A stretch of 64,000 bases of DNA from Paludibacter sp. (GTDB lineage: Bacteria; Bacteroidota; Bacteroidia; Bacteroidales; Paludibacteraceae): the NCBI GenBank assembly GCA_019163375.1, contig JAFLKK010000022.1, positions 1 to 64,000 on the forward strand, given 5' to 3'. Made by a program: the position numbers and the translations under genes. Under the pieces are notes generated by a model. It had not been told where the DNA came from. It was given only the letters and a program-made list of their open reading frames with translations, and searched no databases. Position 1 is the stretch's first letter, and each line of letters starts with the position of its first letter. Shown here piece after piece: positions 3,319 to 25,608 of this stretch.

Positions 3319-3334
3319 CCTACATTTAGGTAAG
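3319..3334 (+). promoter_or_regulatory. Candidate activator site upstream of the modE-like gene
   Basis: CCTACATTTAGGTAAG has the CCTAC-N6-GTAnG form seen twice upstream of nifH and nifE. It lies 96 bp upstream of a sigma-54-like element. Unlike the nif promoters I see only one copy here. NifA is the likely binder by inference. Confidence 0.5.
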
Positions 3335-3429: not shown

Positions 3430-3445
3430 TGGCACAAGAATTGAA
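3430..3445 (+). promoter_or_regulatory. Sigma-54-like promoter of the modE-porin-modABC block
   Basis: TGGCACAAGAATTGAA matches the -24 element TGGCAC and has GA exactly 10 bp after GG, where the classical sigma-54 -12 box has GC. The nifH and nifE promoters have the same GG-N10-GA form. The predicted transcription start is about 3456. Confidence 0.55.
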
Positions 3446-3529: not shown

Positions 3530-3883
3530 ATGAACCATCAAGCTTTCAACATGGCTGCCGACTTATCATTTTATCGTGAAGGTGAATTATTCCTCGGCAA
3601 TGCGCAAGTGCGACTGCTAAAACAAGTGGCGATTGATGGCTCAATACATGCAGCAGCTAAAAATTTGAAAATGTCGTACCAACATGCCTGGCATATTCTC
3701 GACAAAATGAATCTTCTCTCGCCGGTGCCAATTGTAATTCGGCAAAAAGGAGGGAAAGATGGTGGAGGATGTAGAATCAGTCCGTATGGAATGAAGCTTA
3801 TCCGCACTTACGAGAAAAAAGTGGAAGATATTGTTCAGTTTTTAGCGAAAAGCAGCAGCGAATTAGAAAGCTGTTTTTTTTAG
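3530..3883 (+). CDS. ModE-type winged-helix regulator (DNA-binding domain only)
   Basis: A LysR/ModE-like winged helix-turn-helix protein of 117 residues. The N-terminal ModE pattern is clear: GNAQVRLLKQVAIDGSIHAA (helix-turn-helix, residues ~24-43), YQHAWHILDKMN (~52-63), then GGKDGGGCRISPYG in the wing. E. coli ModE (262 aa) also has two molybdate-binding Mop domains. These are absent, so either another protein senses molybdate or the regulator responds indirectly. The stand-alone Mop protein at 9021 is a possible partner, by inference only. It heads the porin-modABC block and has its own sigma-54-like promoter and leader hairpin. Confidence 0.85.
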   Translation: MNHQAFNMAADLSFYREGELFLGNAQVRLLKQVAIDGSIHAAAKNLKMSYQHAWHILDKMNLLSPVPIVIRQKGGKDGGGCRISPYGMKLIRTYEKKVEDIVQFLAKSSSELESCFF

Positions 3884-9335: not shown

Positions 9336-9821
9336 ATGGAAGATATTATTATTCATCCCATAGGAACGGTATATACGCCGCATACGGATGTAAAAAACAT
9401 GCCAATTCAGCCAATAGCTGCCGAAGGCATAAAAGGCTATATCAAACTCTTACCCGAATTTGTTGAAGGATTGAAAGATTTAGAAGGCTTCTCGCACATT
9501 ACACTTCTTTATCGTTTTCATAAAATTGAAGGATACGAACTGTTGGTGACGCCATTTATGGACACTGAAAAGCATGGTATTTTTGCAACTAAAGCACCCA
9601 AAAGACCAAATGCTATTGGCATGTCGACTGTAAAACTGATTGCCATCGATGGAAATATTCTACATATTGAGCAAGTGGATATGCTCGATGGGACACCGCT
9701 GATTGACATCAAACCTTTTTATCCAAGATACGATAACCGTGAAAATGTAAACATCGGGTGGCTGGAGAAAAACAGAGACTTACCCCTGGAGCAATTGCGT
9801 TCGGACGAACGATTCAAATAA
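9336..9821 (+). CDS. tRNA (t6A37)-methyltransferase-like protein, TrmO/TsaA family
   Basis: A TrmO-like (YaeB/VirR, UPF0066) beta-barrel SAM-dependent methyltransferase. E. coli TrmO N-methylates t6A at position 37 of tRNA-Thr. At 161 residues it matches the compact form that lacks the C-terminal domain of the 235-aa E. coli enzyme. Key signs are IHPIGTVYTPH at the start, FSHITLLYRFHK near residue 52 and KRPNAIGMSTVKL near residue 88. It sits between the mop terminator and the nifH control region. Compact TsaA-type proteins also occur beside molybdenum and nitrogenase genes elsewhere, so a metal-related role cannot be excluded. Confidence 0.85.
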   Translation: MEDIIIHPIGTVYTPHTDVKNMPIQPIAAEGIKGYIKLLPEFVEGLKDLEGFSHITLLYRFHKIEGYELLVTPFMDTEKHGIFATKAPKRPNAIGMSTVKLIAIDGNILHIEQVDMLDGTPLIDIKPFYPRYDNRENVNIGWLEKNRDLPLEQLRSDERFK

Positions 9822-9917: not shown

Positions 9918-9954
9918 CCGACAATTTAAGACATTTTCCCTACATTTTGGTAGG
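9918..9954 (+). promoter_or_regulatory. Paired activator sites upstream of nifH
   Basis: Two 16-bp sites start 21 bp apart: CCGACAATTTAAGACA (9918-9933) and CCTACATTTTGGTAGG (9939-9954). The second is a perfect CCTAC-N6-GTAGG inverted repeat. The nifE region has the same pair with the same spacing. They end 135 bp upstream of the sigma-54-like element, a normal enhancer distance. NifA is the likely binder by inference. Confidence 0.65.
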
Positions 9955-10088
9955 TTTTACATTCCAAAGCACCCGCTGAAATTTAACTATATATTTGATT
10001 TCTGAAGAAAAAACAAATATTTTATTTCGCACCATTTCAATGAGTTGACTATGGAAATAGAGAAATAAAAAACACTCAAAACTGTTAA

Positions 10089-10104
10089 TGGCACGGTAAA
10101 TGAA
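10089..10104 (+). promoter_or_regulatory. Sigma-54-like promoter of nifH
   Basis: TGGCACGGTAAATGAA has a perfect -24 TGGCACG and GA exactly 10 bp after GG, in place of the usual GC. The bases around it (GTTAATGGCACG, TAAATGAATAA) recur upstream of nifE. The predicted start is about 10115, giving a leader of about 63 nt. Confidence 0.65.
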
Positions 10105-10165
10105 TAAAGGGTTTCAAGTTCGAAAATATCGACACCGAAATTAAACACATTAGTTATTCATTTAA

Positions 10166-11002
<837 letters not shown>

Positions 11003-15467: not shown

Positions 15468-15504
15468 CCTACATTTTAAGTGTTTTTTCCTACCATAATG
15501 TATG
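15468..15504 (+). promoter_or_regulatory. Paired activator sites upstream of nifE
   Basis: CCTACATTTTAAGTGT (15468-15483) and CCTACCATAATGTATG (15489-15504) start 21 bp apart and end 135 bp before the sigma-54-like element. Both distances are identical to those upstream of nifH. Confidence 0.65.
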
Positions 15505-15638
15505 TTTTTGTAGTATTCAGCAACGCTCATAAAACACAAATTCCGCATTTTAATACTTAAAAAACAAAATTTTATTCCTATCAACATCAGCGCATTAGCC
15601 TCATTGATCATTGTCAAAAAATGCACAATAAATGTTAA

Positions 15639-15654
15639 TGGCACGATAAATGAA
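15639..15654 (+). promoter_or_regulatory. Sigma-54-like promoter of nifE
   Basis: TGGCACGATAAATGAA differs from the nifH element by one base and again has GG-N10-GA. The predicted start is about 15665, giving a leader of about 200 nt with a strong hairpin near its 5' end. Confidence 0.65.
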
Positions 15655-15678
15655 TAAGGGGTATCAGGTTAATGATTC

Positions 15679-15866: not shown

Positions 15867-17198
15867 ATGGCTCATATACTAGATGATAGACAAAAGCAGG
15901 TATCAATGGCTGGCGCAAATGAACGCACTATTGATTGCAACAAAGCCAGCTTGGCGGGAAGCGTGAGTCAACGAGCTTGTGTATTTTGCGGATCGCGCGT
16001 GGTACTTTATCCAATAGTGGATGCACTGCACATTATTCACGGTCCGATTGGTTGCGCGGCTTACACCTGGGATATTCGCGGTTCACTTTCTTCGGGACCA
16101 GAATTGCACCGGTTAAGCTATTGCACCGACTTACAAGAACGTGATGTAATTTTTGGTGGAGAACCAAAACTCTACAAATCGATCATTGAACTTATCGACT
16201 TGCACAAACCCAAAGCAGCATTTATTTATACTACTTGTATTGTAGGTGTTATTGGCGACGATGTGGAACAAATATGCCGCACCGTGGCAAAAGAAAAAGG
16301 GATTCCGATTATTCCTGTTCAGGCTCCCGGATTTCAAGGCTCGAAGAAAGATGGTTACAAAGTGGCTTGCGAAGCTATATTTACATTAGTAGGCACAAAA
16401 AGTAAACCATTCACTCCGGCAAAAAGTATAAACATTCTGGGCGATTTCAACTTAGCTGGCGAGCTTTGGATATTGCTGGAATACTACAAAAAAATGGGTG
16501 TACATGTAAATGCTACCATTACCGGTGATGGACGGGTGGACGATATTTGTAATGCGCACAACGCAGCACTCAATGTGGTTCAATGTTCGGGTTCGATGAA
16601 CTATCTGGCCAAAATGATGAAAGACGAATACAACATTCCATCCATGAGGGTTTCCTACTTTGGAATTGAAGATATGAGTGATGCGCTGTATGATGTGGCT
16701 CGATTTTTTAAAGATGATGATATGATGGCTAAAGCCCGGGAGTTGGTGAAAGAAGAGTTTGCCCGCCTAATGCCGGAGTTGACCTGGTACAAAGAAAGAC
16801 TAACCGGAAAAAAAGCAGCCATTTATGTAGGTGGAGCATTTAAAGCCATTTCGCTGGTAAAAGCATTGAGGTTGATAGGCGTTGAATCGGTCATTGTAGG
16901 TTCGCAAACAGGAACAACCGAAGACTATGAGTTGATCAAACAACTTTGCGACGAGGGAACTATTATCGTTGATGATTCAAATCCGGTGGAACTTTCGCAT
17001 TTCGTAAAAGAGAAAAAAGCCGACATATTTATCGGAGGCGTAAAAGAACGACCCATTGCACATAAAATCGGACTTGGATTCTGCGATCATAACCACGAAC
17101 GAAAAGAACCACTGGCAGGCTACGAAGGCATGATTAATTTCGCCAAAGAAATTTACGCCACAGCAATGAGTCCGGTTTGGAAATTTACAAAAGGTTAA
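15867..17198 (+). CDS. nifE: Nitrogenase cofactor scaffold NifE
   Basis: The alpha-like subunit of the NifEN scaffold on which the NifB product is converted to FeMo-co. It is 443 residues. Cluster-ligand motifs homologous to NifD are SQRACVFCGSRVVL near residue 33, GPIGCAAYTWDIRG near 61 and TTCIVGVIGDDVEQ near 123. NVVQCSGSMNYLAKMM corresponds to the cofactor-Cys region. The start follows a leader of about 200 nt. nifN follows after 83 bp. Confidence 0.97.
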   Translation: MAHILDDRQKQVSMAGANERTIDCNKASLAGSVSQRACVFCGSRVVLYPIVDALHIIHGPIGCAAYTWDIRGSLSSGPELHRLSYCTDLQERDVIFGGEPKLYKSIIELIDLHKPKAAFIYTTCIVGVIGDDVEQICRTVAKEKGIPIIPVQAPGFQGSKKDGYKVACEAIFTLVGTKSKPFTPAKSINILGDFNLAGELWILLEYYKKMGVHVNATITGDGRVDDICNAHNAALNVVQCSGSMNYLAKMMKDEYNIPSMRVSYFGIEDMSDALYDVARFFKDDDMMAKARELVKEEFARLMPELTWYKERLTGKKAAIYVGGAFKAISLVKALRLIGVESVIVGSQTGTTEDYELIKQLCDEGTIIVDDSNPVELSHFVKEKKADIFIGGVKERPIAHKIGLGFCDHNHERKEPLAGYEGMINFAKEIYATAMSPVWKFTKG

Positions 17199-24057: not shown

Positions 24058-25608
24058 TTAAACTTTAAACCGCTTAGCATCAATATCATACTTACGAATA
24101 CGAATACCCATCATTCGTTCAGTAATGCCCAGTTGATCAGCTGCTTTAGCACTATTTCCCTTGGTGGCAATGAGCGCATCCATAATAATTTGTTTCTCCA
24201 TTTTATCCAGTATAAAATCCAACGATCCTGACTGCATAGTTTCGGATGTAGCCGCAGTTTGTAGTGAGGCCGGCAAATTATAAGTTCTAATCACCTGGTC
24301 GGTACTCAAAATACACGCCCGCTCAATACAATTTTCTAATTCACGAATATTGCCCGGCCAATGGTAAACCATCAAAGTATCAATTGCCGAAGCCGTTATT
24401 CTCTTAATATCTTTACCATGACGTTTATTGAACTTATCGATAAAAAAGTCGGCCAATACCGGAATATCATTTATTCGCTCACGCAATGCCGGAATGTAAA
24501 CCGGAAAAACATTGATACGATAATATAAATCCTCACGAAATTGATCCTTTACAATCAAATCTTCCAAGTTTCTGTTGGTGGCGCATAAAATACGTACATC
24601 CACTTTTATGGGCTTAGTGCCCCCTACCCTTTCTATTTCACGCTCTTGCAACACGCGCAACAGTTTTACTTGTGTAGATGCAGGAATATCGCCAAACTCA
24701 TCCAAAAATATCGTTCCACCATTGGCAGCTTCAAATCGCCCTATGCGTTGCATGCTCGCTCCTGTAAATGATCCTTTTTCATGTCCAAATAGCTCACTTT
24801 CAATCAAACTTTCTGGCAACGCAGCACAGTTTACTTTTATAAACGGTTTATTTTTTCGCAAACTATTGTAATGAATGGCATCAGCCACCAACTCCTTTCC
24901 GACCCCACTCTCACCACGAATCAACACGGTGGCATCAGTAGTAGCTACACTTTCGATAAGCGAGAAAACCTCGTTCATCTTACTCGAGTTTCCCTTAATC
25001 TTATCCGGTAAAATTCGGTTCCGAAGCGCGCCTCTTAAATCTCTGTTCTCGTTTTGCAATTGCTCTAATTCCTCTGCATATTCTTGTCTGCGACGCATAG
25101 TTCTACCTACCATCGAGCCCACAATTTTGAGCAAACGCACGTCGTACTGGAACGACACTTCTCCTTTGTACACCTTATGAAAACTTAAGGTGCCAATAAT
25201 CTGATCTTTGTAACGAATGGGCGTACAAATAAACGATACATCTTTTCCATCAATGGCTGTGGGCGCATGCGTGAGATTCAGAAACTCACGCGACTGGCCA
25301 ATCTTTGAAATTTGAATTGTTTCACCGGATTGTATCACATTCCCAATGATGCCTTGTCCAACGTGATAGACCGCCTGTTTCTTTTCCCTTTCCGTAATTC
25401 CAAAAGTACCTTCAATCACAATGTTTGAATTTTCGCGATTCAAAATCGTCAAGATAATTCTTTCGGCACTCAAATGATTGGCCAAAAGACCCATTACATC
25501 ATCTAAATTAATGTCTTTATTACTCAACAACGAACTTAACTCGAGTAAAAACTCAAGTTCTTTAGCCCCGTAACAATCTGGTTTATTATATTTACAAATC
25601 GATTCCAT
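24058..25608 (-). CDS. nifA: NifA, sigma-54-dependent activator of nif genes
   Basis: An enhancer-binding activator of 516 residues. A GAF sensor domain covers about 25-165. An AAA+ sigma-54-contact domain covers about 205-435, with Walker A GESGVGKE near 232 and GSFTGA (a variant of GAFTGA) near 280. A C-terminal Fis-type helix-turn-helix lies near 480-512 ([20 protein letters not shown]). There is no Cys-rich linker of the oxygen-sensing NifA class. It probably binds the CCTAC-N6-GTAGG sites upstream of nifH, nifE and the modE-like gene. Its own promoter is the housekeeping type. Confidence 0.93.

Follow-up and report, generated by a model that had tools for sequence, protein, structure and literature searches.

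The window, that is, the whole stretch of 64,000 nucleotides analysed here, carries a Paludibacter nif cluster in which succinate-CoA ligase genes are followed by modE, modA, modB, a modC-like gene, trmO and nifH, and nifH in turn by two PII-like genes, nifD, nifK, nifE, nifN, a nifB with a NifX-like tail, a ferredoxin gene and nifV. Both nifH (10178–11002, forward strand; NCBIfam TIGR01287) and nifE (15867–17198, forward strand; NCBIfam TIGR01283) scored above the curated cut-offs of their families; the scores of nifD, nifK, nifN, nifV, modE, modC and nifA lay below theirs. The gene for the modE-like regulator (3530–3883, forward strand), upstream of modA, modB and the modC-like gene, reached 82.6 bits with NCBIfam TIGR00637, for which the cut-off is 98.5. 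NifA, which probably reads the sites described below, is encoded at 24058–25608 on the reverse strand and has all the parts of its family, namely a GAF domain, a sigma54-activation AAA+ domain with a GxFTGA loop (GSFTGA, at residue 279) and a Fis-type helix-turn-helix (HTH) (PF01590, PF00158 and PF02954). Its score with the NCBIfam nifA family, by far the best, was 514.3 bits, just under the cut-off of 528.85, and the 37 matches of a search among solved structures included a Nif-specific regulatory protein (9qq6_C). The host genome contains a single NifH match and nine matches to sigma54 activators, four of them strong and five weak. What is known of nif control by NifA comes mainly from Proteobacteria. 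Among the literature matches listed, judged by title and the start of the abstract, none described a nif operator for Bacteroidota or Chlorobi, which does not establish its absence from print.

Upstream of nifH, a degenerate distal candidate activator site (S1, CCGACAATTTAAGACA, 9918–9933) and a proximal one containing TAC-N6-GTA (S2, CCTACATTTTGGTAGG, 9939–9954) precede a sigma54-type −24/−12 element of the form GG-N10-GA (TGGCACGGTAAATGAA, 10089–10104). The arrangement recurs upstream of nifE, with a distal candidate site (CCTACATTTTAAGTGT, 15468–15483), a proximal one (CCTACCATAATGTATG, 15489–15504) and a GG-N10-GA element (TGGCACGATAAATGAA, 15639–15654), all these features being on the forward strand. 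The coordinates, the 21-bp start-to-start pairing and the 135 bp from the end of the proximal site to the start of the element, as given in the original prediction, are exact at both genes. Its description of both members of each pair as CCTAC-N6-GTAGG sites is accurate for the proximal ones (10 and 9 of 10 letters) but not for the distal ones, which are degenerate (5 and 6 of 10 letters at nifH and nifE, by eye); a scan allowing up to two mismatches recovers only the proximal two of the four. The equal geometry at the two genes had been taken as the sign of a real enhancer. The sites do look real, but a promoter core of about 38 bp on the forward strand (10084–10121 at nifH) is nearly identical at nifH and nifE, so that the shared geometry is weaker as independent evidence, and duplication is possible as the origin of the likeness between the two promoters. 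The conserved core was seen to extend beyond the −12 element (TGTTAATGGCACGRTAAATGAATAARGGGTWTCARGTT; 10084–10121 and 15634–15671 of the window), and a stretch resembling it also precedes anfH in the relative G001 (L142).

A third module, absent from the original prediction, lies before modE, some 6 kb ahead of nifH. It consists of a single candidate activator site (CCTACATTTAGGTAAG, 3319–3334, forward strand) and a sigma54-type GG-N10-GA element (TGGCACAAGAATTGAA, 3430–3445, forward strand), 111 bp apart start to start. With it, all three promoters of the window (nifH, nifE and modE) carry a TAC-N6-GTA dyad. Relatives carry TGGCACAGGAATTGAA-like elements at modE, and in five of the ten relatives with a modE match (L010, L012, L022, L086 and L089) a site stands 110–111 bp before the −24 element. 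L014 has the element and no site at 110–111 bp; in L028, where two sites form a pair 20 bp apart, and in L031 a site precedes the element by 81–82 bp, and in the modE regions of L023 and L118 neither arrangement was found. The modE matches of L023, L028, L031 and L118 have at most 63% identity and may not be orthologues. No such site was found in the upstream region of nifA itself. In all three window promoters (nifH, nifE and modE) the −12 letters are GA, which is unusual for sigma54 and may reflect a tuned promoter strength or an altered RpoN.

Taken as letters alone, the motif is no commoner than chance. With up to two mismatches, CCTAC-N6-GTAGG occurs 13 times in the window (10.2 expected; 20 of 100 shuffles gave as high a count), and its count is not enriched in the genome (217/218, against 333/347 for the reversed control); conservation must therefore decide. 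The above-chance status of the sites indeed comes from conservation together with geometry. In MAFFT alignments with close relatives, mean pairwise identity at nifH (10 sequences) was 0.69 for S1, 0.77 for S2 and 0.86 for the 38-bp core, as compared with 0.49 for the remainder of the alignment; at nifE (8 sequences) it was 0.90 for S1, 0.83 for S2 and 0.74 for the core, as compared with 0.26. A composite pattern, CTAC-N6-GTA-N118..146-TGGCA-N7-TG, matched three times in the whole 4.66-Mb genome (once for the reversed-pattern control), namely at nifH, at nifE and within a coding frame, the match at C5:77227 being rejected as lying inside an open frame. Two candidate −24 elements (C2:81158 and C7:68053) and a candidate site (C3:353379) were discarded on the same ground.

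Across 22 genomes of the family, the composite pattern gave 12 matches in 11 nif-positive and 4 in 11 nif-negative genomes, the reversed control giving 10 and 8. Since this total is hardly above the control, the evidence lies in placement rather than number: by position, 11 of the 12 matches of the nif-positive set sit before nifH or nifE, and only that of G144 lies elsewhere. Three nif-positive genomes have no composite match, G105 and G024 because their proximal nifH site carries CATAC/GATAC, which the pattern excludes, and G023 because no −24 element was recognised. The seven nif-negative genomes of the same genus together hold two matches, both in one genome.

Conservation in related nif loci, proposed with the original prediction as its check, was assessed on a wider sample, in which a NifD search gave 80 loci and 14 stretches of family genomes were added, with 4 duplicates dropped. 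Assignment to Bacteroidales by record title and NifD identity left 34 usable nifH regions and 30 nifE regions. When 33 non-redundant nifH regions were scanned without bias for every 3+3 dyad with a gap of 2–16, TAC-N6-GTA was present in 31 (2.6 expected) and GGC-N8-TGA, the −24/−12 element, in 25 (1.3 expected). The classical TGT-N10-ACA occurred in 3 of the 33, against 3.3 expected, that is, at the level of chance, and was rejected as the operator; nor is it present in the 420 bp upstream of the window nifH. The claim that the sites differ from TGT-N10-ACA is thereby borne out. A CCTAC-N6-GTAGG site of at least 8 of 10 letters was found in 30 of 32 Bacteroidales nifH regions (4.4% of shuffled regions), and one of at least 9 letters in 21 of the 32 (0.4% of shuffled regions), the smaller denominator reflecting a stricter redundancy filter. 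TAC-N6-GTA also stands before nifH in L146 and L147, two further Bacteroidales loci. Where both site and −24 element could be recognised at nifH, their distance was 148–151 bp in 18 of 27 regions and ranged from 102 to 161 bp in the other nine; −12 is GA in most of the Bacteroidales nifH promoters.

Among the same 27 regions, the best partner match lay at 21 bp in 11, at 40 bp in 4 and at 20 bp in 1, the remaining partners being mostly weak matches at other spacings. The 21-bp distal match in those 11 regions is partial (CCTACATTTTAA, 9–12 of 12 letters), and two sites of at least 8 of 10 letters are found in 9 of the 27. At nifE, TAC-N6-GTA was present in 12 of 30 Bacteroidales regions (2.1 expected) and a site of at least 9 of 10 letters in 11 of 29 non-redundant ones. 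The distance from site to element was 146–150 bp in every one of the 10 regions that have the two; relaxing the element pattern brings in L023, at 134 bp. Of the 30 nifE regions, 19 lacked a recognisable −24 element. The 11 regions with an element have nifK–nifE gaps of 280–1905 bp; of the 19 without it, 17 have gaps of at most 254 bp and the others gaps of 307 and 973 bp, and all six regions of the 30 in which the gap is shorter than 60 bp belong to the latter group.

The sites are kept on the Chlorobia side of the phylum as well. A phylum-wide NifH search of 395 genomes matched 83, of which 80 lie outside the class of the window; the best 27 of these 80 were examined, and 25 of the 27 belong to one family (f19), taken as Chlorobiaceae, 'Chlorobia' being our own label. 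Among these best 27 of 80, a site of at least 8 of 10 letters precedes nifH in 25 (6.0% of shuffles), and in 17 a pair of such sites has a spacing of exactly 28 bp. The site-to-element distance is 168–172 bp in 17 of the 24 regions of this set that have both; six others have 197–203 bp, mostly with the distal site scoring best, and one has 136 bp. The −12 consensus of the same best 27 of 80 is the canonical TTGC, and the consensus of other phyla likewise has GC. The expectation that relatives would share the motif pair and its spacing thus stands in part: the 21-bp pairing recurs but is not universal, being replaced by 28 bp on the Chlorobia side and by 40 bp in some Bacteroidales. Since the sites are found in Bacteroidales as well as on the Chlorobia side, the predicted operator is common to the phylum, with pairing, distance and −12 letters specific to each class.

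The original prediction regarded this control architecture as new. In kind, it is not, because experiments have established a tandem pair of TAC-N6-GTA sites as the operator of Rhodobacter capsulatus AnfA, described in PMC7294313 as two 17-bp direct repeats with that consensus, each of which contributes and both of which are needed for maximal expression. The candidate sites share with this operator, reported there for R. capsulatus and other alphaproteobacteria, the TAC-N6-GTA core, in part of the regions a second tandem copy, and a predicted sigma54 promoter downstream. They differ from it in the CCTAC/GTAGG extension, the 21- or 28-bp pairing, the near-fixed distance of 150 or 170 bp and the genes served, the Fe-only anfHDGK there and the Mo-nitrogenase nif genes here. 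The VnfA class is also near: the Azotobacter vinelandii operator is given as GTAC-N6-GTAC (PMC7294313), and the ChIP-seq motif of VnfA1 as GT(T/A)C-N6-GTAC, with two in most promoters (PMC9542535). TAC-N6-GTA is contained in GTAC-N6-GTAC and the pairing has a similar spacing; the flanking letters differ, and VnfA1, according to PMC9542535, has transport genes as well as the vnf structural genes among its targets. As for NifA sites, which according to PMC7294313 are well characterised in Proteobacteria, with TGT-N10-ACA as the classical form, the likeness consists in a 16-bp dyad upstream of a nifH sigma54 promoter and in a NifA-family activator, predicted here; the recognition helix, T[P/Q]RQ there and [T/S][E/D]R[M/I/V] here, is different. 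In comparison with the sigma54 promoter TGGCAC-N5-TTGC, the TGGCAC half and the GG-N10-G spacing are kept, and −12 is GA at most nifH promoters of Bacteroidales and at all three promoters of the window. Bacteroidetes nif clusters with nifA and glnB-like genes have been described in an article whose main text does not contain the word 'promoter' (PMC4356463), and a sigma54 survey reports nif-related enrichment in Chlorobiia, with no nif operator in the accessible part of its text (PMC12316311). What seems to be new is the use of an AnfA/VnfA-class operator for Mo-nitrogenase across the Bacteroidota at a fixed spacing, together with the GA at −12 of Bacteroidales.

Full-length NifA was found in all 12 nif-positive genomes searched (of 15 in the family sample) and in none of 14 nif-negative genomes searched (of 134). 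Its recognition helix falls into two classes, mostly LG[I/L][T/S][E/D]R[M/I/V] in Bacteroidota and LG[I/L/M][T/S][P/Q/T]RQ in the deltaproteobacterial, Nitrospirota and proteobacterial proteins. Counted over loci with both a NifA and a nifH region (L082 and L118, which yielded no parsed HTH, were dropped), TGT-N10-ACA accompanies 16 of 21 NifA proteins of the R-Q type and 1 of the 19 others, which include spirochaetes and one planctomycete; TAC-N6-GTA accompanies 10 of the 21 and 16 of the 19. The correlation of helix class with operator is thus strong for TGT-N10-ACA and loose for TAC-N6-GTA, and the presence of the latter in 10 R-Q loci, for example as CCTACCTTTTTGTAAA in a Nitrospira MAG, indicates that the operator is not set by helix class alone.

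In a tree of 63 hand-chosen proteins, rooted by midpoint only, a branch with 100/99 support separates the deltaproteobacterial, Nitrospirota and proteobacterial NifA (17 rows) from all others (46 rows), the latter comprising 19 Bacteroidales NifA, 11 from the Chlorobia side, 4 from spirochaetes, 2 others and 10 anf-type activators. These 10 form one clade (100/100); outside it, on its side of the tree, the Bacteroidales NifA make up a clade of their own (100/99). Three of the anf-type rows come from Rhodopseudomonas, Methylospira and Geobacter, where 'anf-type' refers to the position in the tree, neighbouring genes aside, and seven from Bacteroidota. Of the anf-type rows, that of L143/L247 adjoins anfH, that of G001, a genome with an anf cluster, lies about 8 kb from anfD, and in G154 and G259 the activator and a second NifH-like match (65–67%) are some 8 kb apart; for the other rows no linkage was seen. 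The AnfA and VnfA of A. vinelandii and R. capsulatus themselves are outside the sample, so that the anf-type rows, rather than R. capsulatus AnfA, mark this side of the tree. The 17-row clade was recovered with the same support (100/99) in an earlier tree, which included three other EBPs as outgroup and in which the deepest forks were left open. In L142 and L143, relatives that also have nif, neither TAC-N6-GTA nor CCTAC-N6-GTAGG was found in the anfH promoters; the nif and anf activators may therefore have separate operators in one cell. Stretches containing GTAC were seen in these anfH promoters.

Taken together, the sites, their geometry and conservation, the co-occurrence of NifA with nif, the HTH class and the position in the tree, all read from sequence, make it highly probable that the sites are upstream activator sequences of NifA at sigma54-type promoters. 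They likewise favour the suggestion that Bacteroidetes NifA reads an operator other than the proteobacterial one, NifA being the likely reader by co-occurrence, HTH class and tree position. In the mechanism that we infer, NifA dimers would bind side by side to tandem TAC-N6-GTA dyads, extended to CCTAC-N6-GTAGG, about 150 bp upstream of the element, the paired sites being two helical turns apart in Paludibacter. A DNA loop of about 14 turns would bring them to the sigma54 RNA polymerase poised at the TGGCAC-N6-TGA element, where the AAA+ domain of NifA would drive open-complex formation at the conserved core. The nifH, nifE and modE units, whose downstream genes are assigned from gene order only, would be switched on together. 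NifA would read an AnfA/VnfA-type operator despite serving a Mo-nitrogenase because it belongs to the AnfA/VnfA side of the family. Counting against this reading are the TAC-N6-GTA dyads in R-Q loci, the poor palindrome S1 at nifH, the uncommon −12 letters GA, the absence of a site before nifA, a composite count hardly above its control with 4 matches in nif-negative genomes, and a perfect CCTACATTTTGGTAGG ahead of an amtB-like gene (L120), downstream of which no −24 element was found.

The sites might instead be read by another sigma54 activator. Three further strong EBPs are encoded in the genome (on C2, C6 and C11), and a wider nitrogen regulator is hinted at by a perfect CCTACATTTTGGTAGG (L120, G000:C7:231119–231134) just upstream of an amtB-like gene, itself identified by eye; the genome holds three perfect sites, with about four expected by chance on our own estimate. 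Against this, other sigma54 activators are present in all 26 family genomes searched, nif-positive and nif-negative, whereas full-length NifA is confined to the nif-positive ones; the nif-negative genomes of the same genus hold just the two composite matches mentioned above; and the readers of TAC-N6-GTA-type sites described in PMC7294313 and PMC9542535 are NifA-family proteins. We consider another activator unlikely.

A somewhat poorer account is that the sites are bound by a repressor or by a sensor of metal or nitrogen, such as ModE or a repressor linked to PII, with nif transcribed from the core by a housekeeping-type sigma factor. It would suit the proximity of modE to nifH, the motif before modE and −12 letters that are GA rather than GC. 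At the amtB-like gene, moreover, the palindrome is followed by TACTTTTG, which we read by eye as a possible sigmaA −7 box. However, in two classes the sites keep a near-fixed distance (about 150 and about 170 bp) from a downstream TGGCAC element, which is activator-like rather than repressor-like, the elements of the Chlorobia side (best 27 of 80) have the canonical TTGC, and the window NifA has the GSFTGA sigma54 loop; a repressor at these sites is accordingly improbable. Least credible of all is that nifH and nifE owe their equal geometry merely to a past promoter duplication, with sites now out of use at one of the two genes, which the near-identical core and the 19 of 30 nifE regions lacking a recognised element (all six with gaps below 60 bp among them) would allow, since all 11 nifE regions with the element have gaps of at least 280 bp, as expected for a working separate promoter, and the identity of the nifE sites in close relatives (0.90 and 0.83 against 0.26 in the surroundings) is unexpected for a remnant.

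With NifA as the predicted reader, a broader proposal is fairly probable, namely that an activator of the AnfA/VnfA branch, acting on tandem CCTAC-N6-GTAGG sites, runs Mo-nitrogenase in the Bacteroidota, in Bacteroidales as in green sulfur bacteria, and probably in spirochaetes too, with a change from GC to GA at −12 in Bacteroidales. If this is true, the textbook code of NifA and TGT-N10-ACA would belong to one branch of the family and would not be the general rule, and searches for TGT-N10-ACA would miss the nif promoters of Bacteroidota. A phylum-wide operator with near-fixed geometry would allow direct prediction of the nif regulons of green sulfur bacteria and of Bacteroidales from guts, termites and sediments. 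Being tied to a distinct HTH class, the operator would also mark where DNA recognition by NifA diverged, and the altered −12 element would raise a question about sigma54 in Bacteroidales.

Several minor observations may be added. All Bacteroidales NifA rows compared have an N-terminal C-x6-C pair (window residues 5 and 12); a C-x4-C pair after the AAA+ domain (window residues 427 and 432) is present in the Paludibacter-side branch and absent on the g33/Prevotellaceae side, a pattern that possibly reflects differences in redox sensing. Five deltaproteobacterial nifH regions (L044, L046, L057, L064 and L078) contain ACA-N4-TGT and TGT-N10-ACA dyads together, as if identical half-sites were used in both arrangements. 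Elsewhere in the host genome (L121, G000:C1:421446–421601), CATACCATTTTGTATG lies 139 bp ahead of TGGCACGGTTAATGAG, and the two precede a second trmO-like gene and a FecCD-type ABC transporter; this module is possibly a further member of the regulon. The TrmO/TsaA-like gene of the window (9336–9821) lies directly before nifH, and the second TrmO-like gene before the FecCD-type transporter, so that each is found beside a candidate activator module.
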